Positions 142 to 16,923 of a stretch of 45,361 nt of DNA are shown here, one piece after another. Numbering within the stretch: the stretch's first letter is position 1; every line of letters begins with the position of its first letter. The position numbers and the translations under genes were made by a program. This DNA comes from Pseudomonadota bacterium. Its GTDB lineage: Bacteria; Desulfobacterota; Desulfovibrionia; Desulfovibrionales; Desulfovibrionaceae. Location of the stretch: NCBI GenBank assembly GCA_018816865.1, contig JAHIUW010000027.1, positions 1 through 45,361 of the forward strand. The letters run 5' to 3'. Under the pieces are notes generated by a model. That model had not been told where the DNA came from and ran no database searches. It worked only from the letters and a program-made list of their open reading frames with translations.

Positions 142-1341
142 ATGGTCGGCCTGCCCTTTTGGGAGATTGTGCAAAAGCATGCTGCGTGGAATCGCCCAGC
201 CCTACCTGCGGTTTACAAACACAAACGCCCGGTTAAACAGGACCAAAAGACATACCTCGGCCTTGATGTTTTAACCATCGCAATCCCCATCCTCGATAAA
301 GAAGGAGAGGTAGAGTATGTGGTTTTGAGCATTCGGGACGACTTCCACAAAGGCCAGATACCAAGCCTGGATGAACTTGATGAGCAGCAGGAAGTCATCG
401 AAGAATTACGCCCCGAAGATCTCATCTACCATAGCGCAGCCATGGAACAAGTGGTTCAATCGGCACGTAAGGTGGGAAACCTCAGCGCTCCCTGCCTGCT
501 GCTCGGTGAATCCGGCTGCGGCAAAAGCCTGCTGGCAAAGTTCATCCATGCCAACAGCACACGTCAAGAAAAGCCATTCGTTGTCGTGAACTGTGCGGCC
601 ATTCCAGAACAACTGTTCGAATCCGAACTCTTCGGCCATGTAAAAGGCGCATTCTCTGGAGCCACCAATGTACGCGGCGGCCTGTTCGCCAAGGCCGAGG
701 GTGGCACCCTGTTCCTCGACGAAATTTCAGAGCTTCCGCTCCCCATGCAGGCCAAACTCCTCCATGCAGTTCAGGAAATGGAATACCGCCCTGTTGGCAG
801 CTCCCAGACAGTCAAGGCAAATGTACGCATACTCGCTGCATCCAATCGAAAGCTTGAGCGGATGGCAGCCGATGGTGCATTCCGCCAGGATCTTTTTTTC
901 CGGCTCAATGTTTTTGACATCACCATTCCGCCGCTCAGAGAACGACAGGAAGACCTCATCCCACTCCTCTGTTATTTCCTCAATCACTACGGGAAAAAGC
1001 ACGGCAGAGGAAAACACCTCTCTCCAGAAGCCCAGATTCTCTTGTGTCAGCATTCATGGCCAGGCAACGTTCGAGAACTGGCACATCTGGTGGAACGACT
1101 CGTCGTCACCACGGACGAGGAAACCATCACTGTCGAGCACCTGCCGACGACCCTCTACCAGGCATCATCCCCTCTGACTGAGGCTCCTCCCCATGGCTCT
1201 CTGGACGCAATCATGGCCGAAGTAGAACGCAAACTGATACTTGACAGCGTCACCAAGCAAGGGAGCACCCGCAAGGTGGCAGCAACCCTTGGCATTAGCC
1301 AATCCAGAGCTTCACGCCTCATCCGCAAATACACCGCCTAG
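142..1341 (+). pseudogene. Sigma-54-dependent transcriptional activator, N-terminally truncated by an IS
   Basis: NtrC-type enhancer-binding protein, 399 residues visible. Residues 1-65 are the second half of a PAS-type sensory domain; the first half is missing because the IS end abuts codon 1, so the ATG at 142 is probably an internal codon. The AAA+ domain has Walker A GESGCGKS (122-129), the sigma-54-contacting loop as GAFSGA (169-174, a tolerated variant of GAFTGA) and Walker B GGTLFLDE (187-194). A Fis-type helix-turn-helix lies at about 375-398. It sits directly upstream of three palindromes and a -24/-12 promoter and is the obvious activator of the genes that follow. A truncated product without its sensor part could be inactive or constitutive. 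Family assignment is firm; the truncation is inferred from the IS boundary. Confidence 0.85.
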
Positions 1342-1776: not shown

Positions 1777-2706
1777 ATGATCAAGAATCAAGTTGTAATC
1801 GGCTCACTCTATGCGCTTTGCGCCACAGTCCTCTGGGCTGGCGCATTCATCATCGCTCGCCTGGCTGTTGGTGAAATTTCGCCCATGACCCTTGGTGCTA
1901 CCCGTTGGGGCATGGCTCTGGTCATTCTCTGTACGTTCATGCTGCCCAAAGTGAAAAAGGAATGGCCCGTTGCCAAAAAATTCCTGCCGCAAATCATTGC
2001 TGCCGCTCTTTTTGGTGTGGCCGCTTACTCCCCACTCAGCTATTTCGCAGCGCAGACCACTTCTGCCATCAACCTTTCACTGATTTCCGTCACCACGCCC
2101 ATTTTCATTGTCATCATAGCTTCCCTGATGGGCCAAAAACAATCCATCAACACTTGGGCAGGCTGTACTGTCGCGCTGATAGGTTCCTTCTATCTCGTCA
2201 GTGGTGGCGAACTCAGTCGCATCCTGGCCATGGAATTTGCCGCAGGTGACATCCTGATGCTCGCCGCTGCCGTTGGCTTTGCCATCTACAGTTTGATCCT
2301 CAAGAAGACCCCCGACGGCCTTTCCGGCGGAACCATCATGACGCTCATGTCTTTCTTCGCAGTACTCATGCTCATTCCCTGCGTCATCTGGGAATCCACT
2401 CAGCCTTCCATGGTCTTCAACATGAACGGCATCGTCTTCTTCTCCATCACCTTCTCTGCCATCTGTTCCTCCATCATCGCCTGGTGGACCTGGAACATCG
2501 GCCTGGAAAAAGCAGGTCCGGAACTCTGCGGAATGATCTACTACGCACTGCCCCTGTGGGGCGGCTTCTTCGCCTTCATCTTCCTCGGCGAAAAGATCAC
2601 CTCTATCCACTTCATTTCCGGCGCACTGATCATCGGCGGTATCGCCTGGGCCAGCCGCGGCACCAAGAAAGTTACTGCTGAAAACGCAGTTCCTAGCGAA
2701 GCATAA
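1777..2706 (+). CDS. EamA/DMT-family membrane transporter
   Basis: A 309-residue polytopic protein of the drug/metabolite transporter superfamily. It has about ten hydrophobic helices arranged as two EamA repeats (about 10-140 and 155-290). The N-terminal helix with ALCATVLWAGAFIIARLAVG and the G-x-P-x-x-x-x-x-R pattern at its end (ISPMTLGATRW) are typical. The start is supported by GAGGAG ten bases upstream. It is the first gene behind the sigma-54 promoter, so it probably moves the substrate or a product of the downstream hydroxylase, but EamA substrates cannot be read from sequence. Confidence 0.85.
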   Translation: MIKNQVVIGSLYALCATVLWAGAFIIARLAVGEISPMTLGATRWGMALVILCTFMLPKVKKEWPVAKKFLPQIIAAALFGVAAYSPLSYFAAQTTSAINLSLISVTTPIFIVIIASLMGQKQSINTWAGCTVALIGSFYLVSGGELSRILAMEFAAGDILMLAAAVGFAIYSLILKKTPDGLSGGTIMTLMSFFAVLMLIPCVIWESTQPSMVFNMNGIVFFSITFSAICSSIIAWWTWNIGLEKAGPELCGMIYYALPLWGGFFAFIFLGEKITSIHFISGALIIGGIAWASRGTKKVTAENAVPSEA

Positions 2707-2726
2707 ACAGCTCCTTCATATCCTTT

Positions 2727-2750
2727 GGGGCGGGCCTTTGGGCCTGCCCC
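2727..2750 (+). repeat. Intercistronic hairpin
   Basis: GGGGC-G-GGCC-TTTG-GGCC-T-GCCCC folds as a 10-bp stem with one G-U pair and a 4-base loop, 20 bases after the transporter stop. It has no T-run and so is more likely an mRNA-stabilising or processing stem than a full terminator. Confidence 0.5.
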
Positions 2751-2761
2751 CACAAATTTCC

Positions 2762-2782
2762 TTCCGCATCATCGATGCGGAA
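2762..2782. repeat. Perfect inverted repeat TTCCGCAT-N5-ATGCGGAA
   Basis: An 8-bp perfect inverted repeat with a 5-base centre lies between the EamA gene and the hydroxylase subunit genes. It may be a second intercistronic stem or an operator. No T-run follows. Confidence 0.4.
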
Positions 2783-2876
2783 AATGGGACGGGTGCGCCC
2801 GAACCACAGGCAAAAACATCATGAATTGCTGGCCGCATACAGGTCACAGAGACACCATCGACCAAGGAACTCCATC

Positions 2877-3374
2877 ATGAAAGAACAGCAAAAGAAACTC
2901 ATTCAACTGACTGTGAACGGCGAAGTCCTGTCTCTCCAGGTTGAAGCGCATTGGATCCTCTCCAAAGTCCTGCGCAACGACTGCGGGCACACCGGCACCA
3001 AAGAAGCCTGCGGAGAAGGCGCGTGCGGATCCTGCACCGTGCTCATCGACGGCGTAGCCGTCCCCGCCTGTATGGTGCTGGCTGTGGAGCAGCAGGGCAA
3101 GAACATCGAAACGATCGAAGGACTATCCACAAACGGCAAGCTGCATCCCATCCAGGAAGCCTGGCTTGAAGAATACGGCGCCCAGTGTGGTTTCTGTTCC
3201 CCCGGGATGATCATGACGACGAAGTACCTGCTGAGCAAAACCCCTGATCCCACAGACGATGAGATCAAAGAGGCCCTCGGCGGCAACCTCTGCATCTGCA
3301 GCAACTACGAACACATCATCAATGCCGTAAGAAGTGCAGCCAAGAAGATGCGTAAGGAGCAGGCAAATGTTTAA
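2877..3374 (+). CDS. Molybdenum hydroxylase, [2Fe-2S] iron-sulfur subunit
   Basis: A 165-residue small subunit of the xanthine dehydrogenase/CO dehydrogenase family. Residues 1-80 are a plant-type ferredoxin fold with cluster ligands C45, C50, C53 and C65 (CGEGACGSC motif). Residues 90-155 are the all-helical second [2Fe-2S] domain with C104, C107 (CGFC), C139 and C141 (CIC). It passes electrons from the Mo centre to the FAD subunit. The chosen ATG has AAGGA eight bases upstream; a longer frame from 2775 lacks such a site. The stop overlaps the start of the catalytic subunit (ATG at 3367) by 8 bp, so the two are translationally coupled. Confidence 0.93.
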   Translation: MKEQQKKLIQLTVNGEVLSLQVEAHWILSKVLRNDCGHTGTKEACGEGACGSCTVLIDGVAVPACMVLAVEQQGKNIETIEGLSTNGKLHPIQEAWLEEYGAQCGFCSPGMIMTTKYLLSKTPDPTDDEIKEALGGNLCICSNYEHIINAVRSAAKKMRKEQANV

Positions 3375-4706
3375 AACGAAAGCCGTGGGAAACGTGGTTC
3401 GTCAGAAAGACGGCCGTCCTCGCGTCACTGGTGAAGCAAAGTTCTACGCCGATGTCCTGCTCCCCAACATGCTGCAAACTCGTATTTTGCGCAGCCCATA
3501 CCCGGCTGCCGACATTGTCAGTATCGATACAAGCAAGGCCGAAGCCATGATTGGCGTCAAGCTCGTCATGACCCATAAAAATTATCCCAAGGCATTTCGC
3601 GACACTCTATACTATGTCGGAGATCTGGTAGCCGCAGTCGTGGCCACCGATGAGACCATTGCAGAAGAAGCTCTGAAGTTGATCGAGGTAGAGTACAACA
3701 AAAAGAAATTTGTCCTGAGCCTTGAAGAAGCCATCAAGCCGGATTCCCCCCAGGTATTCGAAGGGGTGGACAACTGCCATGATTGGGAATTCCACTACTA
3801 CATGAGTGATCGAGATCCTGAGACAAAGCTTTTCAACACCAAAACACAGGCTGACTACAACGGCTTTGGCGATATTGATAAGGGTTTTGCAGAAGCAGAC
3901 GTGGTCATCGAGCAAAAAGGCCTCAAATACGCCTATTGCAAAAGCCCTGCAATGGAGACTCGTGGTTGTTCCGCCCACTACGACGGTAACAAGCTCAATG
4001 TGTACACCCACTCGCAAGGTCTTCATGATGAAAAACTATGTCTTGCACAGGCGCTGGGCATCAACGCAAGCATGCTCAACTATATCTCGCCCTATACCGG
4101 CTCCAGTTTCGGTGGCAAAAACGCTTTCCCACTGGACCGCAACATTGCATCTCACTACCTGATGATAGCCAGCCTTGCCAGTCTGGACCTGAACAAGCCT
4201 GTGCACTGTAGCTATTCCCGTGAAGAGGAAATGCTGTGCGGCTGGTCCCGAGGAAGTCTCGGCGATGTAAAGATTGGCTTCAAAAAGGACGGCACACTGA
4301 CCACCATGGATTTCTTCCATTGGCAGGAATGCGGTGCCGGAGGCGACAAATATCCGCCCAAAAACGCCGTGCTTGCGACCGGAGCAGTGCTCTATTCACA
4401 TAACTGCGAACACCAGCGCAGCAGGATCCGCTACGTCCATACAAACAGGTTCTGCTGTAACGGCTGGCAGGGATATGGCGTCCCTGAAGGTACATACGCA
4501 GTTGAGACCACCATGGATATCGCCGCCGACGAGATGGGTATTGACCCGGTTGAAATCCGCAAAAAGAACTGTATGCGGGCAGGCGATGTCGATTCAGGAT
4601 GGGACCCGCTCACCTACAAATCATGCTACATTTCTTCTTCCGGCATCCGCGAGTGCCTGGACGCAGGCGCAGAGCACCTGTGTAAAGTCCCCTTTCTTAG
4701 GGCCAA

Positions 4707-5595
4707 TCAAAAGTAGAGACTCTGGGTTGAAGGTTTTGGGGTAGCCGGAGGGCAGTGGGTGCCCACTGCCCTCCGGGCGGCGAACTCCACCGGCGGCATG
4801 TCTCCAAGGGACTCATGGGGTCGCTCTTCGTTATACTCACGCACAAAGACATCTGTTGCTTCGCGCACTTCGCTCAAGCTGTTGAAAACATACAGGTCCA
4901 GCACTTCACTACGGTAAGTCCTGTTGAAGCGCTCCACGTATGAATTTTGAGTTGGCCTTCCTGGCTGAATGAAATCCAAAATGACGCCATGTGTCTCCGA
5001 CCAAGCGGCCATGGTCGCGCCGATAAACTCCGGTCCGTTATCCATCCTCAGCTTCTCTGGGTAGTGGCCTCGTTCTTCAGCGATGCGGTCGAGCACCCGA
5101 ACAACCCGACCGGCGGGCAGGCTGGTGTCCACCTCCACGGCCAAAACCTCGCGGTTATAGTCGTCCACGGCGTTGAACGTCCTGAACGTCCGCCCGCTGT
5201 AGAGCGTGTCCCGCATGAAATCGATGGACCAACAGTAGTTCGGTGCCAGGGGCTGGGCCAAGATCTTCCGCACGGTGCGGGGCAGACGTTTCTTGCCCTT
5301 GCGCTTCAGGTTCATCTTCAACAGGCAGTAGACCCTCCAGACCCGTTTATGGTTCCAGGGATGACCGTGTCGCCGGAGCACACGGAACAGCTTGCTGAAG
5401 CCCCACGTGGGCTTTCTCTCGGCCAGCTCAAACAGTGCGGCCACGACCTCGCTGTTGTCACGAGGGGTCGGGTTGTAGGCGTAGTAGCTCCGGCTCACGC
5501 CAAACGCCGCACAGGCCTTGCGGAGGCTCGTGGCGTGCACACTGATTGCGTGCAGCACAAGTGCTTTCCGTTGAGCTGGCCTTAAAGTTTTTTTT
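4707..5595 (-). CDS. IS3-family transposase OrfB (integrase core)
   Basis: DDE transposase expressed as a -1 fusion with OrfA. The frame itself is open from 5729, but the part before the A8 run (5588-5595) is the shadow of OrfA. After the shift come a conserved HTH_21-like segment (SLRKACAAFGVSRSYYA) and the rve core with catalytic residues in WSIDFMRD, RMDNGPEF and SYVERFNRTYR (D, D, E). The C-terminal end has the EYNEERPHESLG motif usual for this family. The stop lies inside the left terminal repeat of the element. Translation presumably requires the slippery site; no independent start with a good ribosome-binding site was seen. Confidence 0.92.
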
Positions 5596-5848
5596 CGATG
5601 ACATCCTTGAGCATCATGTTCTCGAGGCTCAACTCTGCGAACATCTGCTTGAGCTTGGCGTTCTCCGCCTCCAGTTCCTTCATTCGCCGGATGTCCGAGG
5701 CCTCCATGCCGCCATACTTCGACTTCCACTTGTAGTAGGTCGCACTGCTCACCCCATGCTCGCGGCAGATGTCCGTGACGGCTCGGCCACCCTCGGCGGC
5801 CTTCAGAATCTTAACGATTTGAAACTCGGTGAATCTTGTTTTGCGCAT
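5582..5848 (-). CDS. IS3-family transposase OrfA
   Basis: An 88-residue DNA-binding protein: helix-turn-helix (residues about 8-45, with GRAVTDICREHGVSSATYYKW) followed by a leucine-zipper-like helix (about 52-85). Its last codons contain an uninterrupted A8 run on the minus strand (5595-5588) directly before the stop. This is the usual site of programmed -1 frameshifting that makes OrfAB. Start supported by the preceding AGGAG (AACAGGAGTTTCGT before ATG). Confidence 0.93.
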   Translation of the reverse strand: MRKTRFTEFQIVKILKAAEGGRAVTDICREHGVSSATYYKWKSKYGGMEASDIRRMKELEAENAKLKQMFAELSLENMMLKDVIEKKL

Positions 5849-6979
5849 ACGAAACTCCTGTTCCTTGTTTGGAGCAGAAGTCTCTACTTGGCAATGGACC
5901 TAATTTACGGGGACTTTACACCTGGACTGGAAAAACACCTGGCAGCACCCCAAAGAAAAGACAGGACGAATCAGGAGCGGCATGGGTGTCGCCATCTTCG
6001 CCATGGCTGCGGGTCGTCCCGGACCGGGGAACTCCAGTGAAGCCATGGTCAAGATCTTCCCTGACGGCACTGCTGCGCTGGTTTGCGCCATCGCCGACAT
6101 CGGCCAGGGACAGCACACAGTACAAACGCAGATCGTTGCTGACGTACTCGGACTTCCTTATGAAAAAGTGGGCATCGTCTGTCACGACACGGACTCCACC
6201 CCCTTCGCAACGTTGGTCGCCGGAAGCTGTGGCACCTGGATTCAGGGTTGGACCACTTACGGAGCGGCCATGGATGCAAAGAAGCAGGTCCTTGAGCTGG
6301 CTGCCAACAAGTTGAATGTTCCCACTGAAGACTTAACCATGGATGAACATGGTGTGCACGTCACTGGCGATCATGAAAAAAAAGTGACCTTCTCCGAAGC
6401 TTTTGGCCCACGAGGTCATTATGGAGGCATCCACGAAGTCGTGGGATATCATGTCCATAATTCACCGCACGCCTCCGGACACAAGGACGGAAAAAAGGAT
6501 CAAATATACATTCCCAAGGAAAAGGGCGCACAGTTCATCACCTTGGATGTAGATACCGAAACCGGCATCATTTCGAACGTCAAAGTCATCATGGCCCAGA
6601 ATGTCGGCAAAGCCCTCAACCCGAAGATCGTCGAAGGCCAACTTCTGGGCGCCCGCCATGGTATTGAGAACGCAATGCTCGCCAACGACTGCATCGTGGA
6701 CAAGCGCAACGGTTGGCTCATGACACCCAACTGGATCGATTATCGCCACACCACAGCCTTGGATTGCGACGTCACCCCCCTTGTCATCGAAAAGCCAGGC
6801 GACTTGAGCCACCCGCTGGGAGCCACGGCTTGCGGGGAGGGCGCAGCCTGTCCGACATTGGCCTCATTCTCCAACGCCCTCTTCAATGCCATCGGCGTCC
6901 GCATTCTGGAAACACCGTTCACCCCGGAAAAGATCCTCACAGCCCTTGGGAAGATCAAGGCCAGAGGGAGGAAAGAATA

Positions 6980-7963
6980 ATGAAACGTTTTAATCACTTC
7001 GACGCAAGGTCAATTGAAGAGGCAGTCTCACTGCTCCAAGAGGGTGGAGGCCCAGCCTACGTCATCGGAGGCGGCAGCGACCTCATGGGTTGCCTGAAAG
7101 ACAACTTGTGGATGGAATACCCCGAGCGGATCGTCAACCTGAAGACAATCCCCGGACTGAAAGATATTCGCGAAGAAGACGGTGCGTTGCATATCGGCGC
7201 ACTCGTAACCCTGACGGAATTGGCCGAAGCCGAGAGCGTCAAGGCCACTTGGCCAAGTCTGTCCGAGGCAGCCCGCCGAACCGGTTCTCCCCTGCTGAGG
7301 AACATGGGAACCGTGGCAGGCAACATCTGTCAGGAAAATCGTTGCTGGTACTACCGCTACCCGGACAAGATCGGCGGCCGCATCGATTGTGTGCGCAAGG
7401 GCGGCAAGCGCTGTCTGGCCGTTCCCGGCGACCACCGCTTTCACTCCATATTTGGTGCAGTGAACAAATGTATCGCCGTCAATCCAAGCGACACAGCTCC
7501 GTCTTTTGTCGCCCTGAACGCCACCATCAAGACCACCAAGCGCGATATCCCCATTGACCAGTTCTTCTCCGCAGAGATGGGCGCGCAGTCAACGGTGCTG
7601 GACCGCGACGAGATCGTCACTGAAATCATCGTCCCCAAACCGGAAGCAGGTCCAACCAGTGCGTTTCGCAAAATAGCCTTCCGCCAGTCCATCGACTTCG
7701 CTCTGGTCAACTGCGCTGCGTCCCTTGCCATCGTTGACGACACGATCACCTCTGCCCGCGTCTGCCTCAATGGGGTGCACAATAACCCCCGGCGTTGTGA
7801 AGCAACCGAAGAGGCACTCATGGGCAAGAAACTGACCGAGGCACTGGCACAGGAGGCTGGCGAATTGGCCGTGGCCGACGCCAAACCCCTGTTCCAGAAC
7901 GGATTCAAGGTTCAGATGGCAAAAACCATCATCGCCGACACGCTCATGGATTGCATCAAGTAG
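6980..7963 (+). CDS. Molybdenum hydroxylase FAD-binding subunit with an extra Cys loop
   Basis: A 327-residue medium subunit of the xanthine dehydrogenase family. FAD-binding motifs are VIGGGSDL (28-35) and TVAGNI (111-116). The C-terminal CO_deh_flav_C domain follows from about 205. An insertion after GNI carries C117, C122, C137, C145 and C164. Four of these have a spacing similar to the [4Fe-4S] loop of the 4-hydroxybenzoyl-CoA reductase beta subunit, so a fourth Fe-S cluster is likely. The start ATG overlaps the stop of the catalytic subunit (TAATG) and has GAGGAAAG upstream. Intact, although its partner gene is broken. Confidence 0.92.
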   Translation: MKRFNHFDARSIEEAVSLLQEGGGPAYVIGGGSDLMGCLKDNLWMEYPERIVNLKTIPGLKDIREEDGALHIGALVTLTELAEAESVKATWPSLSEAARRTGSPLLRNMGTVAGNICQENRCWYYRYPDKIGGRIDCVRKGGKRCLAVPGDHRFHSIFGAVNKCIAVNPSDTAPSFVALNATIKTTKRDIPIDQFFSAEMGAQSTVLDRDEIVTEIIVPKPEAGPTSAFRKIAFRQSIDFALVNCAASLAIVDDTITSARVCLNGVHNNPRRCEATEEALMGKKLTEALAQEAGELAVADAKPLFQNGFKVQMAKTIIADTLMDCIK

Positions 7964-7985
7964 ACCATCACCAAGGATGATCGAC

Positions 7986-8600
7986 ATGAAACAGACACAA
8001 ATCAACGTCTCCGGCATCATTCTCGCTGCCGGGCAAGCCTCCCGAATGGGCAGGGATAAATTATCCCTGCCCTTCAGGGGAATGCCCTTGCTCCAACATG
8101 TCGTAAACGCGGCACGTCGCTCTAGCCTGAGCGATGTAACCGTGGTCCTGCCCAAAGACTCCGATCTTGAAAAAGTCGTAAATCTAACCGGTTGCAACGT
8201 AGTCATCAGCACCCAACGCGACCTGGGCCAAGCCGAGTCATTGCAGGCCGGCCTACGAAGCATTCCAGATCACGCTGCGGGGTGCATGGTCCTGCTCGGC
8301 GACCAACCGCTTATCACGCCGACCACCATCGACCTGCTCGTAGGGGCCTTTGCACAACAACCTGAATGCTGGGTCGCTCCAATTCAAGAAGGTATGCGTG
8401 GCAACCCAATCACCATTCCCGCCACCTGGTTTCATAGGGTCTTCGAGTTGAAAGGAGACACGGGGGCTCGTCCGCTGCTGGCATCGCCCGGCCTTGCCCT
8501 GCGGCTGGTTCGCATCCACGAAATCGGTCCGTTCATTGATGTGGATACCGAGCACCAATACCAGTGGCTTCTGGATAAATACGAAACCAAGACAGCCTGA
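7986..8600 (+). CDS. MocA-like molybdenum cofactor cytidylyltransferase
   Basis: A 204-residue nucleotidyltransferase of the MobA/MocA type. The signature LAAGQASRMGRDK (13-25) binds NTP, and LLGDQPL carries the metal-binding aspartate. In this context it should attach CMP to molybdopterin, giving the MCD cofactor used by XDH-family enzymes. I prefer the ATG at 7986 (AAGGA at 7973-7977, 8-base spacing) over the ATG at 7977, whose ribosome-binding site would be too close. It is intact and follows the FAD subunit by 22 bp. Confidence 0.85.
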   Translation: MKQTQINVSGIILAAGQASRMGRDKLSLPFRGMPLLQHVVNAARRSSLSDVTVVLPKDSDLEKVVNLTGCNVVISTQRDLGQAESLQAGLRSIPDHAAGCMVLLGDQPLITPTTIDLLVGAFAQQPECWVAPIQEGMRGNPITIPATWFHRVFELKGDTGARPLLASPGLALRLVRIHEIGPFIDVDTEHQYQWLLDKYETKTA

Positions 8601-8608
8601 GGGTTACC

Positions 8609-9424
8609 ATGAACGTTCAATCCCCTGTCATCGTCATGCGCGGAGCAGGCGACCTCGCCACCGGAGTGGCACTCCGCCTCTACCGGGCTGAGTTACGCAA
8701 GATAGTTATGCTGGAAACTGCCAACCCACTGGCCGTCCGCCGCACCGTGGCTTTCTCCGAATGCGTGACCCACGAGCGGATGACCGTAGAGGGAGTAACT
8801 GCAAAACACATCGCCTCCACAAACCTGGTAAAAGAGACCTGGGCTGCGGACTTCATCCCCGTCCTGGTGGACCCCGACGCCGCCACTCTGCCCCGACTCA
8901 ACCCGGATGTCCTCGTGGACGCCATCATTGCCAAGCGCAACCTGGGCACGTACAGCTCTCAGGCCCCGCTTGTCATCGGTCTTGGGCCAGGATTCACCGC
9001 CAGCGAAGACGTACATATGGTGATTGAAACCATGCGGGGTCACTCTCTGGGCAGGGTCATCACCCAAGGCGCTGCTCTCCCCAATACCGGCATCCCTGGC
9101 ACAATCAACGGTTTCGCCATCGAGCGGGTCAATTGGGCTGAAAATGCGGGAATATTTACCACCATGTTCACAATCGGCGACACCATTTCCGAAGGTGAAG
9201 AACTGGGGCATGTTGACGAAACACCGGTCATCGCAAAGCTCTCCGGCATCGTCCGAGGATTGCTGCAAAGTGGCACTCACGTGAACAAGCGAACCAAGCT
9301 TGGCGATGTGGACCCGCGAGGTTCCATCTCCTATTGCGGCGAAGTCTCGGATAAGGCGTTAGCCGTCGGCGGCGGCGTACTGGAAGCGATTTCAGCACAC
9401 ATTTTCAGCGTGGCGCACGCATGA
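8609..9424 (+). CDS. yqeB: YqeB, selenium-dependent molybdenum hydroxylase maturation protein
   Basis: A 271-residue protein of the EF2563/YqeB family. It begins with a glycine-rich nucleotide-binding-like segment (GAGDLATG, 12-19) and continues with the family's GLGPGFTA and NTGIPG patterns. YqeB is a known genomic marker, together with YqeC and SelD, of molybdenum hydroxylases that need labile selenium at the Mo site. Its biochemical step is not established. GAGGG lies upstream of the ATG, and the stop overlaps the yqeC start (ATGA). Its presence is the main reason to call the neighbouring hydroxylase selenium-dependent. Confidence 0.88.
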   Translation: MNVQSPVIVMRGAGDLATGVALRLYRAELRKIVMLETANPLAVRRTVAFSECVTHERMTVEGVTAKHIASTNLVKETWAADFIPVLVDPDAATLPRLNPDVLVDAIIAKRNLGTYSSQAPLVIGLGPGFTASEDVHMVIETMRGHSLGRVITQGAALPNTGIPGTINGFAIERVNWAENAGIFTTMFTIGDTISEGEELGHVDETPVIAKLSGIVRGLLQSGTHVNKRTKLGDVDPRGSISYCGEVSDKALAVGGGVLEAISAHIFSVAHA

Positions 9425-10260
9425 CCAGGACCGCGATCTTGTCAGGCCCAGCCTCCATCATCTCGCCGGAACACCGGCTCATCGCCGTCATCGGAGCGGG
9501 AGGAAAAACCTCCCTCATCGGGTGGATTGCACAGCAGAGGCTGCTCGAACAAAAAAAAGTCATCATCACCACGACAACAAAGATTCTCCCGCTCCATGAC
9601 GTATGTACTGTACTTCAAGAACAAGGCCCTGATTTTCCGGATCGCGTCTATCGCGCCCTGAACAAGCATTCGCGTATCCTCATTGCACGCACATTCGACA
9701 CCCAGACCGGAAAAATGATCGGTCTGGATACGGATATAATCACACAGCTGCATGAGTCGGGCATGGCAGACTCCATTTTGGTGGAAGCCGACGGCGCCGC
9801 CCATAAACCTCTCAAGGCCCCGGCCAAACACGAACCGGTCATACCCTTCGCTGCAGACATATGCATCGGTGTCATGGGACTGGATGCCGTATACCGCCCG
9901 CTGACGGAAGCCAACGTGCATCGGCACGAGATCTTTTCCAGAATCACTGGATTAGCACCAGGCGAACTGGTCACTCCGGCTGATATGATCCACATCGCCA
10001 CAGCCCCGAACGGACTGTTCAAGGGAAGTCCTCCAGATAGCGAACAGGTCATCCTACTCAACAAAAGCGACATCCCCGGCAGCAGAGACTGGATCGATGA
10101 ATTTGAATCCATTTTGAACGACAAGCAACATTTACTCCCTTGCAAGTGGTTCACAGGAAGTGTTCAACAGCAGCATTTGAATCGAATCAATCACACTCCC
10201 GACCCCATGCATTATTCTGTCAGATCGCGACTCTCATTGTCTCATCCGTTCCAAAAGTGA
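9421..10260 (+). CDS. yqeC: YqeC, selenium cofactor biosynthesis protein
   Basis: A 279-residue P-loop protein. The N-terminal GAGGKTS (25-31), followed by VIITTTTKI, and the central LVEADGAAHKPLKAP segment are characteristic of the YqeC family. The family co-occurs with YqeB in selenium-dependent molybdenum hydroxylase systems, but its reaction is unproven. The ATG overlaps the yqeB stop by 4 bp. No sign of decay. Confidence 0.9.
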   Translation: MTRTAILSGPASIISPEHRLIAVIGAGGKTSLIGWIAQQRLLEQKKVIITTTTKILPLHDVCTVLQEQGPDFPDRVYRALNKHSRILIARTFDTQTGKMIGLDTDIITQLHESGMADSILVEADGAAHKPLKAPAKHEPVIPFAADICIGVMGLDAVYRPLTEANVHRHEIFSRITGLAPGELVTPADMIHIATAPNGLFKGSPPDSEQVILLNKSDIPGSRDWIDEFESILNDKQHLLPCKWFTGSVQQQHLNRINHTPDPMHYSVRSRLSLSHPFQK

Positions 10261-10270
10261 GGAAGCAGCC

Positions 10271-11854
10271 ATGCCCAAAGAAGAAAAGACCCCACTGACA
10301 CCGCGCTCCACATGCCCACCCGATAACGGCGGTGTGTGTGCTGTCTGTTTCTTCGGTGCCCTATCCATCATCCTAGCCGCGTGCGTCCCGCTCCTCATGG
10401 CCCCGGAGGCGAGTGAACGGGTCATCAATTCGCTCTTCACCTTTGTCACCGTGGAAATGGGATGGCTCTATATGCTCACGGGCATGGGGTCCTTCGTCCT
10501 GCTCATGTGGTTCGCCTTCGGACCATTCAGCCACAAACGCCTCGGCGAGACAGTGGAGTACTCGACCTTTTCATGGATCGGCATGCTGTTCTGTGCAGGC
10601 GTAGGCGCAGGCATCATGTTCGGCGGCTCCATAGATTGGGCATATTACATGGCCTACCCCATGCACGGAGAACCCGCAGGCTCCCTGAAGGCCGCCGAAT
10701 GGGGCGCGGCATACGGCATGTTCCATTGGGGTCCCATATGCTGGGCCATCTACGCAACTCTGGCCGTCCCCATCGGCTACAGTTATTATGTTAAAAGAAT
10801 CCCCATCCTGAACATCTCGCAAGGATGCACCGGCCTGCTCGGCGACTCTGTGAACCGCTGGCCCGGAAAGATCATTGATATACTATTCATGACCGGCCTC
10901 GTGGCCGGCTCAGCCACAGCGCTTGGCCTCGGCATCCCCATCGTTGCCGCATCCATTTCTTCCGTGACAGGCGTTGAGCACTCGTTCTGGCTTGAGTTTG
11001 GCACACTCCTCTGCGTCACCGTCATCTTCTGCATATCTTCAAGTCTCGGTCTGAAAAAAGGACTCAGTAACCTCTCGAACTTCAACGTCTTGATCGCCAT
11101 GGGCCTGTTGCTGTTCGTCTTCATCACCGGACCGACTCTGTTTCTCACCGACATGGCAATTACCTCACTAGGACTCATGGTCTCCGAACTGATCACCATG
11201 GCCACATGGATGGACCCCATGAATTCGTCCGGCTTCACCAAAGACTGGACCGTCTTCTACTACGCATGGTTCGTGGCATATGCCCCCTTCATGTCCCTTT
11301 TCATCGCCAAGATATCACGAGGCCGCACCGTGCGCGAAGTTGTGCTCGGTCCGGTCATCGTCGCCTCACTCGGCTGCGGCTGTTTCTACCTCGTGTTCGG
11401 CAACTTCGGCCTGCACCTCCAGCTCACAGGCCAGCTTGATGTGGTGACTCTGGTCAAGACCGTCAAGGGCGCCACTGCCATCATGGCCATCGCAGATTTC
11501 ATGCCCATGGCATCCTTCTATAAGGTGGTGTTCGGCGCGGTCACCGCCATCTCCATGGCCACGACCTTTGATGCGGTCTCCTTTGCACTGGCTGCCACCA
11601 CGACGCGCAAACTGACACCCGACGATGAACCCGCCCGCTGGAACCGTCTGTTCTGGGCTCTCTCACTCGGATTGGTGCCCACGGGCATCATGCTCATCGA
11701 CGGACCACTCTCGGTACTGCAAACCGCATCCATCGTGGTGGGGCTACCAGTGCTTGTCGTGATCTGGATCGGGGTAGCGTCTTTCCTCAAGGAATACCGG
11801 CAAACAGGTTGGGTGGAATATGACTCCGCCGCCTGCACTCCGCGCGATCAGTAG
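10271..11854 (+). CDS. BCCT-family (betaine/carnitine/choline) transporter
   Basis: A 527-residue membrane protein with about twelve hydrophobic helices. The FCAGVGAGIMFGGSIDWAYY region (helix with G-x-G-x-M/I-x-x-G and the following W) and the FHWGPICWAIYA segment are typical of BCCT carriers. The helix-8 region around TKDWTVFYYAWFVAYAPF contains the aromatic residues that form the trimethylammonium box in BetP and CaiT. It starts 10 bp after yqeC with GAGGAAGC upstream. Its place inside a hydroxylase operon suggests that the pathway substrate, or a counter-ion, carries a quaternary ammonium group. The family call is firm; the substrate is inference. Confidence 0.9.
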   Translation: MPKEEKTPLTPRSTCPPDNGGVCAVCFFGALSIILAACVPLLMAPEASERVINSLFTFVTVEMGWLYMLTGMGSFVLLMWFAFGPFSHKRLGETVEYSTFSWIGMLFCAGVGAGIMFGGSIDWAYYMAYPMHGEPAGSLKAAEWGAAYGMFHWGPICWAIYATLAVPIGYSYYVKRIPILNISQGCTGLLGDSVNRWPGKIIDILFMTGLVAGSATALGLGIPIVAASISSVTGVEHSFWLEFGTLLCVTVIFCISSSLGLKKGLSNLSNFNVLIAMGLLLFVFITGPTLFLTDMAITSLGLMVSELITMATWMDPMNSSGFTKDWTVFYYAWFVAYAPFMSLFIAKISRGRTVREVVLGPVIVASLGCGCFYLVFGNFGLHLQLTGQLDVVTLVKTVKGATAIMAIADFMPMASFYKVVFGAVTAISMATTFDAVSFALAATTTRKLTPDDEPARWNRLFWALSLGLVPTGIMLIDGPLSVLQTASIVVGLPVLVVIWIGVASFLKEYRQTGWVEYDSAACTPRDQ

Positions 11855-11890
11855 ACCAAACTTTTTCAATCGCAAGACATAGAGGTCACA

Positions 11891-12916
11891 ATGAAAACCA
11901 TGCACGTCGAAAATGCCGTAGGTACGATCTTATGTCATGACATCACCCGCATCATCCCCGGCGAAGCCAAAGGGCCTGCTTTCCGCAGAGGCCACGTTGT
12001 CACTAAGGCGGACATCCCCGCCCTGTTGGACATAGGCAAGGAGCACCTCTATGTGTTCAGCCCCGATGACGGATACGTCCACGAAGACGACGCTGCTTAT
12101 CGCATAGCCAAGGCAGCAATAGGCCCCGGCATTGAACTCAGCACTCCTGTTGAGGGCAAGATAACCCTGCGCGCCACCACTGACGGCCTACTCGACATCA
12201 ATACCGACACCTTATTCAAGCTCAACTCGGTCAAGGATGTCATCTTTGGTACGATCCACACCAACCAGTTGGTCAAAACAGGCCGCGCCATGGCCGGAAC
12301 CCGTGTCATCCCGCTGGTGGTACCGGAAGAGATTGTAGCCGAGGCCGAAGCCATACTTCGGGAAAACTCACCGCTCATTCAAGTTCGCCCGCTCAAACCT
12401 TGCCGCGTTGGGATTGTCACCACAGGCAGCGAAGTTTTCAGTGGCCGCATCAAGGACAAATTCGGCCCGGTCGTCCGCAACAAGTTCAAAGAATACGGTT
12501 CCACAACGATAGGTCAGAAGCTCGTCTCGGACGAGCCGACGATGACAGTAAAAGCCATTCAGGATTTTCTGGAAGAAGGCGCAGATTTTATAGTTGTCAC
12601 CGGAGGCATGTCCGTAGACCCGGATGATCAAACCCCGGCATCCATTCGCATGACTGGTGCAGAGGTCGTGACATACGGAGCTCCTACATTCCCCGGTGCC
12701 ATGTTCATGCTGGCAAAGATCGATGGAGTTCCAATTGTCGGCCTGCCAGGTTGTGTCATGTACTACCGGGCAAGCATTTTCGATTTGATCATACCGAGGA
12801 TTCTGGCGGGCAAGGATGTGACCCGCGAAGACATCATCAATCTGGGGCACGGCGGATTTTGCGAAGGATGCGATGACTGCCGGTACCCTGTTTGCGGCTT
12901 TGGCAAGGGAGTCTAG
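11891..12916 (+). CDS. MoeA-like molybdopterin-binding protein of the hydroxylase cluster
   Basis: A 341-residue protein with a MoCF_biosynth (MoeA/MogA-like) domain around residues 170-310, including TTGSEVFSGRIKDKFGP and VVTGGMSVDPDD, the family's nucleotide and molybdopterin-binding signatures. The C-terminus carries four cysteines in CEGCDDCRYPVC, a possible metal or Fe-S site absent from standard MoeA. It is shorter than MoeA and lacks its usual N-terminal domain arrangement. It probably inserts or modifies the metal for the neighbouring selenium-dependent hydroxylase. AGAGGT precedes the ATG. The stop is one base before the xdhC start. Confidence 0.82.
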   Translation: MKTMHVENAVGTILCHDITRIIPGEAKGPAFRRGHVVTKADIPALLDIGKEHLYVFSPDDGYVHEDDAAYRIAKAAIGPGIELSTPVEGKITLRATTDGLLDINTDTLFKLNSVKDVIFGTIHTNQLVKTGRAMAGTRVIPLVVPEEIVAEAEAILRENSPLIQVRPLKPCRVGIVTTGSEVFSGRIKDKFGPVVRNKFKEYGSTTIGQKLVSDEPTMTVKAIQDFLEEGADFIVVTGGMSVDPDDQTPASIRMTGAEVVTYGAPTFPGAMFMLAKIDGVPIVGLPGCVMYYRASIFDLIIPRILAGKDVTREDIINLGHGGFCEGCDDCRYPVCGFGKGV

Positions 12917-12917
12917 A

Positions 12918-13934
12918 ATGCGCGATGTGTTTGCTGCGATTCTGATACGACTTGAACAGGGCCAACCAGTCGTTCGAGTGTCCGTCATGAAAAGTGCCGG
13001 ATCCACACCACGCGCCGCCGGCGCAACCATGGCCGTTTTCAAGGACGGTTCCATGAAAGGCACCATCGGTGGCGGCTCCGTGGAAAACGAAAGTCACATC
13101 GCAGCAAAACTAATGAAACCAGGCACATCAGAGATTCGAACCTTCGACCTCACCGCCAATGATGCAGCCTCCCTTGGCATGGTCTGTGGAGGCAACATGA
13201 CCGTGCTGCTCGACTCCCTCCTCCCGAGCAAGGAAACGATCAACCTCGTTCAGGAGGTCATCAAACGATACAGATCGAGTGACAAACACCAACTGACCAC
13301 CACACTGGCAGCTAATGGCGAAGTTCTCCGAAGAGAGGTTCAGCCTGCCGACAACGACACATTGAAATCACTGCACGCGCCAGTTGTCTTCCCTACCGAT
13401 GACGGATCTCTCTTTGTAGAGCCGCTTATCATACCGAAAACCATCCATTTCATCGGTGCAGGACATGTGGCGCAAGCAACGGCACCACTGGCTGCCTCCA
13501 CCGGATTCCGAGTCAAAGTCGTTGATGACCGCACCGACTTTGCCAATGCCGATCGTTTCCCCAACGCAGCCGAAATCACTGTGGCGGACAGCCTCAAGGA
13601 ATGCCTCCCCGAAAGTCTCGGCCCAGAAGACTACGTTGTCATCATGACTCGCGGCCATCTGCATGACAAAGATGTTCTGGCCCAAGCACTGAAAACAAGC
13701 GCCGGGTATGTGGGTATGATCGGAAGCACGAAAAAGAAAAAGGCGGTATACGAGTCTCTCCTCTGCGACGGGTTCAGGCCACAGGACTTGGACCGAGTCC
13801 ATTGCCCCATCGGACTGTCCATCGGTGCTGACACACCGGAAGAGATAGCCATCAGCATTATGGCGGAACTCATTTCAATAAGGAAAGAGAACAGGTCATC
13901 GTTTAAGCAAGTGTCTCAAGTTATGGATAAATGA
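12918..13934 (+). CDS. XdhC-family maturation protein
   Basis: A 338-residue protein with an N-terminal XdhC_CoxI domain (residues 1-90, SAGSTPRAAGATM and GTIGGGSVENE) and a C-terminal Rossmann domain (from about 170, FIGAGHVAQATAPLA). XdhC proteins bind molybdenum cofactor and pass it, after sulfuration, to XDH-type enzymes; here the inserted ligand may be selenium. It starts directly after the MoeA-like gene (TAG-A-ATG) with GGGAG upstream. It is the last gene of the island; the next gene is on the opposite strand. Confidence 0.88.
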   Translation: MRDVFAAILIRLEQGQPVVRVSVMKSAGSTPRAAGATMAVFKDGSMKGTIGGGSVENESHIAAKLMKPGTSEIRTFDLTANDAASLGMVCGGNMTVLLDSLLPSKETINLVQEVIKRYRSSDKHQLTTTLAANGEVLRREVQPADNDTLKSLHAPVVFPTDDGSLFVEPLIIPKTIHFIGAGHVAQATAPLAASTGFRVKVVDDRTDFANADRFPNAAEITVADSLKECLPESLGPEDYVVIMTRGHLHDKDVLAQALKTSAGYVGMIGSTKKKKAVYESLLCDGFRPQDLDRVHCPIGLSIGADTPEEIAISIMAELISIRKENRSSFKQVSQVMDK

Positions 13935-14187: not shown

Positions 14188-14895
14188 CTATTTCCCCTGG
14201 AGCTTGATCTCGATGGCTCCGGGCGCATAGCCCTTGAACTCCTTGAGCATGCCCACCACCGAGGCCGAAAAAACGCGCTGCACAAAGGGGTTCATGGCGA
14301 TGGTCTGCCCACCCACCGTGACCTCCACTCCGGAGAACTGGGACTGGCAGTCCTCGGGCAAAGCCTTGCCCGCCACGATATCCCGCGCCAGGGAGACGCA
14401 ATCGGGACGACCACAGGCCCCGCAATCCAAACCGGCCAGGGCAAAGCCCTTATCCAGCACCAGATCTGCCAGAGCCGAAACGTCGCGGACATGGTCCATG
14501 CCGTAACCCGCCACCTCGCCATAGCTCGCCAGGGCCAAGTCGTCGCCCAGACTCCCTGCATCAGCGACGGAGCGCAACAGCAGGATGCGGGGCAGCCAGC
14601 CCAGGCTCTTGCCACCCTCCACGATGACCACATCGGCATCCAGCAACGGCAAGAGATCGGGCAGGTGACGCCTGCCTTCCCAGAACACCGCAGCGCCGTC
14701 CGGAGCCAGCAGGGCCGCGCTGCCATAGACCTTGCGCAGCCGGTCCGTGTCCGTGCCCTCGGTGTCCACACCCTCGTGATGCGTGAACTTCACCGCAGCG
14801 ACGGATATTCCGCGGCCTTTCAGTTCCTCGCCCAAGGCCAGAGCCAGGGTCGTCTTGCCTGTATCCTTGAATCCAACGATGCTTACTGCGATCAT
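14188..14895 (-). CDS. mobB: MobB, molybdopterin-guanine dinucleotide biosynthesis protein, with a Cys-rich C-terminal domain
   Basis: A 235-residue GTP-binding protein. The N-terminal P-loop is VGFKDTGKTT (about 8-17), and FTHHEG is the MobB switch-like motif. Residues 1-150 match standard MobB, which assists MobA in guanylylation of molybdopterin. The extra tail carries C-G-A-C-G-R-P-D-C and a later Cys (C-x2-C-x4-C-x16-C), a pattern of [4Fe-4S]-type domains. The start is ambiguous between two adjacent ATG codons; GGAG fits the second (14895) better. Transcribed alone, away from the other Moco genes at 19691-21785. Confidence 0.9.
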   Translation of the reverse strand: MIAVSIVGFKDTGKTTLALALGEELKGRGISVAAVKFTHHEGVDTEGTDTDRLRKVYGSAALLAPDGAAVFWEGRRHLPDLLPLLDADVVIVEGGKSLGWLPRILLLRSVADAGSLGDDLALASYGEVAGYGMDHVRDVSALADLVLDKGFALAGLDCGACGRPDCVSLARDIVAGKALPEDCQSQFSGVEVTVGGQTIAMNPFVQRVFSASVVGMLKEFKGYAPGAIEIKLQGK

Positions 14896-15130
14896 CATCT
14901 ACTCCAGGAGTCGTCCGTGCAAAATTGCTTGCCATTGAGGACCAGAGTTCCCCCCTCAGGTCAAGCACCATGCCCGAAAAACATCAAGTCCAAGGAACTC
15001 CCTGTGCATATTTTATCCGAAATCTACAACGCAGTTTTTTGAATTCATGAAGCCCTATCCACAGCACCCCTGCACCATGGCGACTGCATGGCCATGCAAC
15101 TAGCCAAAATCTCAATGTATATTTTAAGTA

Positions 15131-15158
15131 TTGACAAATATTTTTCCCGTTCTAAAGT
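15131..15158 (+). promoter_or_regulatory. Sigma-70-type promoter of a candidate small RNA
   Basis: TTGACA (15131-15136) and TAAAGT (15153-15158) are separated by 16 bases in an AT-rich stretch. The predicted start near 15165 coincides with the base of a hairpin and lies about 95 nt before a strong terminator. Confidence 0.6.
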
Positions 15159-15164
15159 AATAAT

Positions 15165-15258
15165 GACTGCCAGGTCATTCCCCCTCAGCACTCTGGCGGT
15201 TTCACACACAGTTAGAGGTCTGGCCCGTCCGCGACACCGGGTCAGGCCTCTCTTTTTA
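15165..15258 (+). ncRNA. Candidate small RNA, about 94 nt, two stem-loops
   Basis: This segment lies in a 640-base gap between mobB and tupC without any convincing gene. It has a promoter at the right distance. Stem I pairs ACTGCCAG (15166-15173) with CTGGCGGT (15193-15200), leaving a CU-rich loop. A single-stranded linker rich in CACA follows, then a strong terminator stem. The layout is that of a free-standing bacterial sRNA. I recognise no known family. The short frames that cross it (for example 15088-15471) show no coding character. Confidence 0.5.
15214..15258 (+). terminator. Rho-independent terminator of the candidate sRNA
   Basis: A 14-bp stem (AGAGGTCTGGCCCG with CGGGTCAGGCCTCT, two G-U pairs) encloses a 10-base loop and is followed by CTTTTTATT. 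No plus-strand gene precedes it, which points to a non-coding transcript. Confidence 0.85.
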
Positions 15259-15537
15259 TTCTTGCACCCAAGCGACACCCACCCCTACGCACCGCCCCAG
15301 GGTCAGCACTGCAACCGCCGCAAGCTCCTCATCCCCCAATGCTGGTGTGCAGTAGATTCAATCCAACCTTCTTCGTGCATCAGCCAGGGTCAAGTTGAAC
15401 TACAATCAGCCATTCTAAGCAGTCATTTCATTCTTACCACAAAAGACCAAAACGAACCTGAACGCACGTGAACGAACAACAGACCCTCGCCCGCCCTTTG
15501 GCTTCAAATCAAACCTTTGAAGAAGCGGGGGAGATGA
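15259..15537. other. Gap without a recognised gene
   Basis: About 280 bases between the sRNA terminator and the tupC stop. Base composition is mixed and no frame has a ribosome-binding site or recognisable product. TTCAAA-N7-TTTGAA at the tupC end (minus strand) is a weak stem and not a clear terminator. Confidence 0.4.
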
Positions 15538-16194
15538 TCAGGAAGGCTGCTGGATCCGCCCTCCGCGCAGGTGGATGATCTCGTCGCACATATTGCGCAG
15601 CCAGCCCATGTCGTGACTGACCACCACCAGGGTCGTGCCCCACTGTTCCCGGGCCGCCATGGCCGCATGATGAATGCGTTCCACACTGACTTCATCAAGA
15701 CTGGCCGTGGGTTCGTCCAGCAGAAGCACCTTGGGCTGCAGCACAAGACGCGCCGCCAGGGCCACCCGTTGGGCCTCGCCGCCGGAGAGTTCGTACCAGG
15801 CCCTGTGCATGAAGAGTTTCGGGTCCAGCCCCACCATCTCCAAGACATGTCCCACCCGCTCCTTGCTTGGGCCATGGCCCCGGACCTTGAGCCCATAGGC
15901 CACGTTGGCGGCCACCGAGCGCTTAAGCAGGTACGGCTCCTGCGTCAGCAGGGACACCTCGCGACGCACACCACAGTCAGAACCGGCATTCCCGTTTCCG
16001 GCAAATCTCACAACACCTCGCAACGGGATCTCCAGAAAGGCCAGCAAACGCATCAGGGTACTCTTGCCGCTGCCATTGGGCCCGGCCAGACCGGTGATCC
16101 GGCCCACCGGCAGATCCAGTTCCGGCACGCAGAGAACCTCCCTGCCGCCGTACTCCTGGATCACATCCCGCAATTGGTACAACGGCATGCTCAT
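15538..16194 (-). CDS. tupC: Tungstate ABC transporter, ATP-binding protein
   Basis: A 218-residue ABC ATPase with Walker A GPNGSGKS (38-45), signature LSGGEAQR (136-143), Walker B VLLLDEP (156-162) and the H-loop VSHD. It energises uptake of tungstate through TupB. I chose the ATG at 16194, which overlaps the tupB stop (ATGA); the longer frame from 16341 would run through tupB. Size and organisation match tupC. Modulation by substrate is not visible; there is no C-terminal TOBE domain as in ModC, which argues for tungstate rather than classical molybdate transport. Confidence 0.9.
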   Translation of the reverse strand: MSMPLYQLRDVIQEYGGREVLCVPELDLPVGRITGLAGPNGSGKSTLMRLLAFLEIPLRGVVRFAGNGNAGSDCGVRREVSLLTQEPYLLKRSVAANVAYGLKVRGHGPSKERVGHVLEMVGLDPKLFMHRAWYELSGGEAQRVALAARLVLQPKVLLLDEPTASLDEVSVERIHHAAMAAREQWGTTLVVVSHDMGWLRNMCDEIIHLRGGRIQQPS

Positions 16195-16886: not shown

Positions 16887-16904
16887 AGGCCCTCAATGAT
16901 AAGG

Positions 16905-16923
16905 GGGGCGCGACGCGCCCCCA
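16905..16923 (-). repeat. Intra-operon hairpin between tupA and tupB
   Basis: GGGGGCGCG-A-CGCGCCCCC is a perfect 9-bp inverted repeat, followed on the minus strand by TTATCATT. Such a stem after a binding-protein gene typically stabilises the upstream mRNA or gives partial termination, so that TupA is made in excess of TupB and TupC. Confidence 0.6.

Follow-up and report, generated by a model that had tools for sequence, protein, structure and literature searches.

What does a molybdenum hydroxylase oxidise when its operon carries both the markers of labile selenium and a carrier of the BCCT family? The question is raised by contig JAHIUW010000027.1 (GenBank assembly GCA_018816865.1) of a Pseudomonadota bacterium that GTDB places in the Desulfovibrionaceae, the genome of which is 3.64 Mb long and 99.97% complete. 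We analysed positions 1 to 45,361 of this contig, hereafter the window. Positions 1777–13934 carry ten genes, all on the plus strand, for an EamA carrier, the 2Fe-2S, Mo and FAD subunits of the hydroxylase, MocA, YqeB, YqeC, the BCCT carrier, a MoCF protein and XdhC, so the ten functions that the original prediction had assigned to this interval are all present in one orientation. The operon is real and conserved, it encodes a molybdenum and probably selenium enzyme of the Desulfovibrio family, and its combination of enzyme and BCCT was not met in the papers listed by our literature search. The near-constant association of the enzyme with a betaine-type importer and a switch of its own points to an undescribed use of a betaine-like compound.

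To establish how constant this association is, we searched 348 genomes of the order separately for the FAD subunit and for the BCCT. The FAD subunit was found at E ≤ 1e-40 in 42 genomes, 25 of which (the source genome included) carry it at ≥69% identity and 17 at ≤43%. The BCCT was found at E ≤ 1e-150 in 25 genomes, 24 of them in the enzyme set; the remaining one (G262) has a cut-off end of the FAD subunit at a contig edge, and the one enzyme-bearing genome without a BCCT (G077) is 72% complete. With the carrier in 24 of the 25 enzyme genomes, the outcome set beforehand as refuting the link, namely a BCCT missing from most homologous clusters, did not occur. The order EBP-EamA-S-L-M-MocA-(YqeB-YqeC)-BCCT (EBP being the activator described below and S, L and M the three subunits) recurs in 20 other fetched whole genomes, four of them without YqeB and YqeC, and is therefore not a chance arrangement; the BCCT gene is usually followed there by a MoCF gene and in some genomes by XdhC. 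As the BCCT is retained even by the four near-complete genomes that lack yqeB, the enzyme has a tighter link to the carrier than to the selenium marker. The 348 genomes include one other member of the source's genus, G175, in which both enzyme and BCCT are missing.

The cluster of one genome, G266 (contigs L053 and L098), is split, with the enzyme genes on one contig, where a GltD-like oxidoreductase gene follows them, and EamA-MocA-YqeB-YqeC-BCCT on another; both parts are kept. The enzyme contig carries an activator copy and is 80–87% like the window, and the remaining, enzyme-less cluster is 49–80% like it, which looks like a transfer and replacement of the enzyme part. A record labelled Gracilibacteria (L041) was excluded because it is probably misbinned: the two neighbours that were tested proved unrelated.

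The transcription unit starts farther upstream than 1777. A gene for a sigma-54-dependent activator with AAA+ and Fis-type HTH domains occupies 142–1341 (plus strand; Pfam Sigma54_activat, 220 bits), and a −24/−12 promoter, TGGCAT-N5-TTGCT, matches by pattern at 1534–1549 on the same strand, so that both hallmarks of a sigma-54-regulated operon are present at the sequence level. The activator aligns to that of L048, an intact relative, at 80% over residues 52–454; the relatives start with 51 further residues, for which positions 1–141, at the contig edge, contain no counterpart. Part of the protein is presumably a PAS remnant, which we assigned by eye. Between activator and EamA lie three GAGTC-N6-GACTC inverted repeats (1345–1360, 1364–1379 and 1423–1438; span 1345–1438), the proposed activator-binding sites. 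Across 24 such gaps, that of the window included, the promoter pattern is found in all 24, at least one operator-like site in 23 and at least two in 20, the gap without any being that of L053.

The source genome holds five GAGTC-N6-GACTC sites, as against one for a reversed control pattern, and three of the five are those upstream of the operon. A regulon search of this genome for more pathway genes found none: the other two operator-like sites each stand alone within an open frame, so that the operator appears to have the operon as its sole target there. The original claim of a catabolic pathway is not supported at this locus, as the operon contains a single catabolic enzyme and the genome shows no second operator target. 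In the relatives (17 of 23 genomes), an extra group of sites outside the operon was found, among the matches listed, only in G203, where paired GAGTC-N6-GACTC sites and a sister activator (56%) precede another BCCT cluster, which again links the activator family to substrates of BCCT carriers. This other cluster (L147, 4976–10902) reads, in order, sigma-54 activator, paired sites, an enolase-superfamily gene (nearest solved structure of the product, 3sjn), BCCT and a UxaA/galactarate-dehydratase-like gene; it is probably another betaine-type catabolic module.

The Mo, Fe-S and FAD subunits of a xanthine-oxidase-family enzyme are all recognised by Pfam and NCBIfam profiles. The small subunit (2877–3374, plus strand) has two [2Fe-2S] domains (Fer2_2, 102 bits; Fer2, 26.2 bits), and the FAD subunit (6980–7963, plus strand) contains a loop with five cysteines (Cys117, 122, 137, 145 and 164). 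The large, Mo-binding subunit is encoded on the plus strand in two pieces: an N-terminal one with the loop GWQGYG (3367–4680; MoCoBD_1, 169.9 bits; homologous to L048 residues 1–438) and a C-terminal one with the catalytic Glu motif GEGAA (5921–6980; MoCoBD_2, 151.3 bits; L048 residues 434–789). Between them, on the minus strand, lies an IS3-type insertion (4681–5920; transposase open reading frames 5582–5848 and 4707–5729, domains rve and HTH_Tnp_1) that ends in perfect 12-bp inverted repeats, TGTAAAGTCCCC / GGGGACTTTACA, and is flanked on either side by CCTG; only one full copy of the element was found in the assembly. Homology to the intact large subunit of L048 accordingly runs over 3367–4680 and 5910–6977, with the element between. 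The predicted three-subunit hydroxylase therefore stands as far as its subunits are concerned, all of which are encoded, but its large subunit is split. Because the element interrupts the Mo subunit gene, enzyme and module are probably inactive in the source genome, to judge from the sequence; relatives with intact operon genes exist.

The NCBIfam scores of the enzyme stay far below the curated cut-offs. The best NCBIfam family for both the large and the FAD subunit is 4-hydroxybenzoyl-CoA reductase (TIGR03194, TIGR03195), but TIGR03194 yields 190.1 and 156.6 bits on the two large-subunit pieces and 361.6 bits on the intact subunit of the more distant relative L044, against a cut-off of 994.55. 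The model of selenium-dependent xanthine dehydrogenase, TIGR03311, likewise stays below its cut-off of 830.45 (121.9 and 40.9 bits on the pieces, 171.8 on L044). The nearest solved structures are 1rm6_A for the large subunit (241.5 bits), nicotinate dehydrogenase 3hrd_B for its C-terminal piece (139.8 bits), aldehyde oxidase 5y6q_B for the FAD subunit (137.7 bits) and Desulfovibrio gigas aldehyde oxidoreductase (AOR) for one stretch of the Mo domain (71.5 bits), against one such stretch of which plain aldehyde oxidase chains of 1,338 residues score only 31 bits. A structure prediction of the large subunit (AlphaFold2, seven relatives) was set aside at a mean pLDDT of 35.6.

The active-site loop is distinctive. 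Arg is the usual active-site residue of this loop in the xanthine oxidase family, as in AFRGFG of nicotinate dehydrogenase and xanthine dehydrogenase, AFRGYG of D. gigas AOR and AMRGHG of 4-hydroxybenzoyl-CoA reductase; here the loop reads GWQGYG. Among 63 aligned rows of relatives, the Arg column holds Gln in 29 (26 distinct places; the GWQ[GA]YG clade), Arg in 26, and Thr in six and Ser in two that are possibly misaligned in part. The catalytic Glu of GEGAA is retained throughout the GWQ clade except in the Clostridia member L046. The five cysteines of the FAD subunit are each invariant wherever covered (29 or 30 of 31 rows, the others being gaps), and for this reason the subunit is predicted to carry an extra [4Fe-4S] cluster like that of the 4-hydroxybenzoyl-CoA reductase β subunit. 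The same kind of loop also aligns in aldehyde oxidase 5y6q_B, and hence it is no marker of reductases.

The BCCT (10271–11854, plus strand) is a confident member of its family (PF02028, 441.2 bits, cut-off 27; TIGR00842, 411.5 bits, cut-off 407.55). Its best NCBIfam equivalog is CaiT, the carnitine/γ-butyrobetaine antiporter (NF002887), the cut-off of which it misses (390.9 bits versus 541); unlike CaiT, it retains Thr431, Thr432 and Asp434 as in the Na+ sites of DddT. DddT, a BCCT-family importer of dimethylsulfoniopropionate (DMSP; structure 21ff), is its closest solved relative at 417 bits, followed by CaiT at 240 and BetP at about 160. The operon carrier and DddT share the aromatic box (W140, W320, Y324), Y112, W313, F316, Y317 and the threonines of the Na2 site, W320 and Y324 being covered in 23 of 24 BCCT relatives. 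They differ in that DddT W105 is replaced by Gly (Gly118) and S204 by Ala (Ala217), in the window and in all 24 relatives, and in the linkage of the operon carrier to a Mo enzyme. Three other BCCTs in the fetched loci have Trp at the place of W105; as they too lack Ser at that of S204, the W105 change alone marks the clade. Excerpts of a study of DddT report that changing W105 or S204 to Ala causes a significant loss of DMSP transport activity, that S204 holds the DMSP carboxylate and that DddT-like carriers without DMSP transport occur (PMC13270143). With both residues replaced, DMSP is an unlikely cargo, and the substitutions suggest a pocket wider than that of DddT.

Whether the enzyme uses selenium can be approached through its markers. 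YqeB (8609–9424, plus strand; selenium-cofactor maturation; TIGR03309, 339.6 bits, cut-off 220) and YqeC (9421–10260, plus strand; TIGR03172, 175.8 bits, cut-off 73.05) both score above their cut-offs, and selD, the check proposed with the original prediction, is present in the source genome and in 26 of 26 genomes examined. In each of the 26 the selD gene has a TGA codon in frame; these bacteria thus make use of selenocysteine as well, which gives selD another role. C. difficile needs YqeB, as well as selD, to grow on xanthine and urate, and YqeC has no clear requirement in purine use there, according to excerpts of PMC11448449; the labile-selenium enzymes named in excerpts of PMC2276186 act on nicotinate, xanthine and purines. 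Besides the source genome, 20 of the 24 other genomes with the enzyme have YqeB: 18 carry it within the enzyme cluster, G266 carries it in the split-off BCCT part, and G077 has it elsewhere. The operon YqeB is the only one in the source genome, and the operon enzyme is its only FAD-subunit match at E ≤ 1e-5.

Selenium dependence, as originally predicted, thus has the markers and selD on its side, but four of the 24 other enzyme genomes lack YqeB (G304, G095, G301 and G094, each at least 99% complete, with enzyme, MocA and BCCT kept). On account of these four genomes the idea of obligatory selenium was rejected; the enzyme family probably does not require it. On a tree of the FAD subunit they occupy one side of a moderately supported branch (83/77, below the starred level); the tree leaves out L063, L071, L041, L047 and L070, which are partial or frame-broken, and L045 and L071 are one and the same contig of 3,790 bases. 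Six near-fixed residues of the Mo subunit, none of them catalytic, divide the YqeB-less group from the others in a comparison that counted G077 in that group although it has YqeB elsewhere. In two outgroup genomes YqeB is present, on contigs other than that of the enzyme. On the simplest reading, most members would carry selenium on Mo and one lineage would have switched to sulfur.

The remaining genes fit a role in cofactor maturation. The MocA/YgfJ-type cytidylyltransferase, of the kind that makes the cytosine dinucleotide cofactor (7977–8600, plus strand), has TIGR03310 as its best family (157.4 bits, cut-off 186.45). The XdhC-family maturation factor (12873–13934, plus strand; NF045664, 367.4 bits, cut-off 350) belongs to the cluster in some relatives but not in all. 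The protein predicted to be MoeA-like (11891–12916, plus strand) does contain a molybdopterin-binding MoCF_biosynth domain (PF00994, 84.7 bits), but instead of a full MoeA match it has a Cys-rich tail, and no NCBIfam model reaches its cut-off. This tail, CEGC..CRYPVC.FGKG, recurs with slight variations in 18 relatives among the matches listed. The protein, proposed here as a cofactor-handling factor, possibly serves a selenium- or metal-handling step.

The reading that we prefer, tentatively and with a confidence somewhat short of even, is that of a self-contained, sigma-54-switched module that oxidises one imported quaternary-ammonium compound, likeliest an N-methyl heteroaromatic betaine, and exports the product through EamA. 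The activator would sense the compound, bind the GAGTC-N6-GACTC sites and fire the −24/−12 promoter. The BCCT, of which the family and most Na+-site residues are established, would carry the zwitterionic compound inward together with Na+. The heterotrimer, with Mo, probably a cytosine-dinucleotide cofactor, two 2Fe-2S clusters, FAD and the extra 4Fe-4S cluster, would then hydroxylate it with water and release two electrons, which might pass to NAD(P) or ferredoxin. MocA, the MoCF protein, XdhC, YqeB and YqeC would mature the cofactor, with YqeB and YqeC, as markers, placing selenium on Mo in most members. EamA (1777–2706, plus strand; DMT; PF00892, 117 bits) would export a pyridone-type product, so that the compound would be mainly an electron donor. 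A G+C-rich inverted repeat spotted by eye between the EamA and 2Fe-2S genes (2726–2752, GGGGCGGGCC...GGGCCTGCCCC) is possibly an attenuator that separates EamA from the rest of the operon.

The substrate class follows from two demands: (i) the cargo of a BCCT has a quaternary N or S, and (ii) the enzyme needs an attackable bond, that is, a heteroaromatic C–H or an aldehyde. N-methylated heteroaromatic betaines such as homarine, trigonelline or the like meet both and are the most likely class, favoured because an aromatic C–H beside a quaternary N is hydroxylatable by this enzyme family; loss of the usual Arg to the Gln of GWQGYG would, moreover, suit a cation. A precedent for the proposed reaction is the human and animal aldehyde oxidase, a single-chain, selenium-free enzyme that hydroxylates N1-methylnicotinamide, an N-methylpyridinium, to the pyridone. 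Betaine aldehyde fits less well because it needs further enzymes that are absent from the operon. A further pointer comes from L044, the subunits of which are 53–63% identical with GWQGYG kept: its enzyme genes are preceded by genes for a cupin-HTH regulator, a TRAP carrier and an MttB-family methyltransferase (TIGR02369, 288 bits versus a cut-off of 525; nearest solved structures 2qne and the glycine betaine methyltransferase 9yce). The betaine-type substrate class of the original prediction is supported by the BCCT pocket, the sister BCCT cluster of G203 and the MttB neighbour of L044, and qualified by the change of S204 to Ala and by its confinement to the GWQ clade. A bolder version of our proposal is doubtful: that no earlier selenium-dependent hydroxylase acts, as this one would, on a permanently cationic N-methyl-heteroaromatic betaine, with import by bacteria of the Desulfovibrio family, one-step oxidation at a selenium–molybdenum centre re-tuned by the Arg-to-Gln exchange, electrons delivered to respiration, export of the pyridone, and one sub-lineage switched from selenium to sulfur on Mo. 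If it were true, that sub-lineage would offer a natural experiment on what labile selenium is good for.

Several observations weigh against the preferred module. The co-occurrence counts are raw and uncorrected for kinship, and that EamA acts as an exporter is guessed from its family. In the carrier, the Na+-site residues F415 and S422 of DddT are replaced by Ser or Cys and by Ala, respectively, in the orthologues, the three other BCCTs have Thr, Val and Val at the place of S204, and since S204 is Ala here a carboxylate betaine is not assured as the cargo. In the enzyme, eight of the 34 non-GWQ rows also have Thr or Ser at the Arg column, and in the Clostridia relative L046 (GWQAYG) the catalytic Glu is replaced by Gln. 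The selenium part is weakened by the four YqeB-less genomes named above. The MttB link is seen on one contig only (L044), and a search of the source genome for an MttB-family gene found none. Finally, 20 neighbourhoods of further relatives (41–51% in the FAD subunit; other loop motifs wherever the loop was seen), some on short contigs and scanned with one MttB query, contain no BCCT and no MttB match. The betaine link is thus restricted to the GWQ clade, and on the strength of these 20 neighbourhoods the idea that the wider enzyme family consists of betaine enzymes was rejected.

Four other explanations have to be set against this module. The least improbable of them, though unlikely, is an aldehyde oxidoreductase module in which the BCCT imports a compound such as choline or carnitine and the substrate of the Mo enzyme is an aldehyde, betaine aldehyde for instance, that is formed from it elsewhere in the cell. 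Aldehyde oxidases are indeed among the closest solved structures for the FAD subunit and for one stretch of the Mo domain, and XdhC belongs to an AOR-linked family, but no alcohol dehydrogenase or amine lyase was recognised among the operon genes, the labile-selenium enzymes cited above act on other substrates and the loop of D. gigas AOR, AFRGYG, is not that of this clade. Quite unlikely is a purine- or nicotinate-type selenium-dependent hydroxylase beside which an osmolyte carrier lies by chance. YqeB and YqeC do accompany purine and nicotinate enzymes in the cases described in excerpts of PMC2276186 and PMC11448449, and nicotinate dehydrogenase is nearest to the C-terminal Mo piece; the shortfall of TIGR03311 against its cut-off, the lack of any recognised purine-breakdown gene in the operon, and a BCCT that sits inside the operon and co-occurs near-perfectly with the enzyme, even where the cluster is split, tell against it.

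The two explanations that remain concern the chemistry. We consider it improbable that the enzyme is a reductase like 4-hydroxybenzoyl-CoA reductase, in which the extra 4Fe-4S cluster would allow an imported compound to be deoxygenated or reduced as an electron acceptor: TIGR03194 and TIGR03195 are the best families, 1rm6_A the best solved large subunit and the five-Cys loop invariant, but the TIGR03194 scores lie far under the cut-off, no CoA ligase was recognised among the operon genes and an aldehyde oxidase has a loop of the same kind. Most improbable of the four is that selenium plays no part, YqeB and YqeC serving another enzyme and the Mo ligand being sulfur throughout. The four YqeB-less genomes would fit this, as would the six near-fixed differences, among which no catalytic residue separates the two groups; against it stand the location of YqeB within the cluster in 18 genomes, the absence from the source genome of any other YqeB or FAD-subunit match for it to serve, and the position of the YqeB-less rows on one side of a branch, as expected from a single switch.

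Compared with known systems, the preferred betaine module combines familiar parts in a different way. With the selenium-dependent Mo hydroxylases (nicotinate dehydrogenase of E. barkeri, clostridial xanthine dehydrogenase and purine hydroxylase) it shares the xanthine oxidase fold, 2Fe-2S and FAD subunits, YqeB, YqeC, a MocA-type gene and selD, but differs from them in its BCCT and EamA carriers, its own sigma-54 activator and operator, GWQGYG instead of AFRGFG, the Cys loop of the FAD subunit, the lack of recognised purine- or nicotinate-breakdown genes and the absence of YqeB from some members. With 4-hydroxybenzoyl-CoA reductase of Thauera (1rm6) it shares the best-scoring NCBIfam family and the Cys-rich 4Fe-4S loop, but not scores near the cut-offs or a CoA ligase, and it has an adjoining BCCT. 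Among the papers listed, our literature search showed no report that joins a Mo hydroxylase and a BCCT in one operon; in excerpts of PMC4791908 the two appear in separate sections and loci. Searches on N-methyl heterocycles with molybdenum hydroxylase found nothing, and those on homarine and trigonelline, judged by titles, found no anaerobic route.

Homarine and trigonelline are common in marine organisms, and if either is the substrate, the operon adds an anaerobic sink for these nitrogen compounds. Should a labile-selenium enzyme be coupled to a betaine-type importer in a conserved operon, the chemistry of such enzymes would extend beyond purines and nicotinate, and a genetic system with few candidate substrates would be at hand. 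An excerpt of PMC11448449 describes labile selenium on Mo as the least understood mode of selenium incorporation, and the YqeB-bearing and YqeB-less orthologues within one bacterial family make the role of selenium directly testable.

Several neighbouring and related loci complete the picture. In L046 (7147–10957) the enzyme adjoins EamA, acetate-kinase-like and phosphotransacetylase-like genes and may have a non-hydroxylase function. On L100, G203 has YqeB, YqeC and MocA genes once more, together with another type of Mo hydroxylase (loop AMRGFG) and no BCCT match in 20 kb; the enzyme is perhaps an ordinary selenium-dependent hydroxylase. In the window, a formate dehydrogenase α subunit gene (23192–26215, plus strand; TIGR01553, 1218.6 bits after the TGA) contains an in-frame TGA at 23762–23764, presumably selenocysteine, and is followed at 26228 by a gene for a formate dehydrogenase β-like protein. 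Facing the operon on the minus strand, 14188–17848 encodes MobB with an Fe-S domain and then parts of a Tup-type tungstate ABC carrier, the TupA-like binding protein of which scores 359.6 bits, below the cut-off of 400. With a MoaA-like gene at 20793–21782, the region around the operon is rich in Mo/W cofactor genes.

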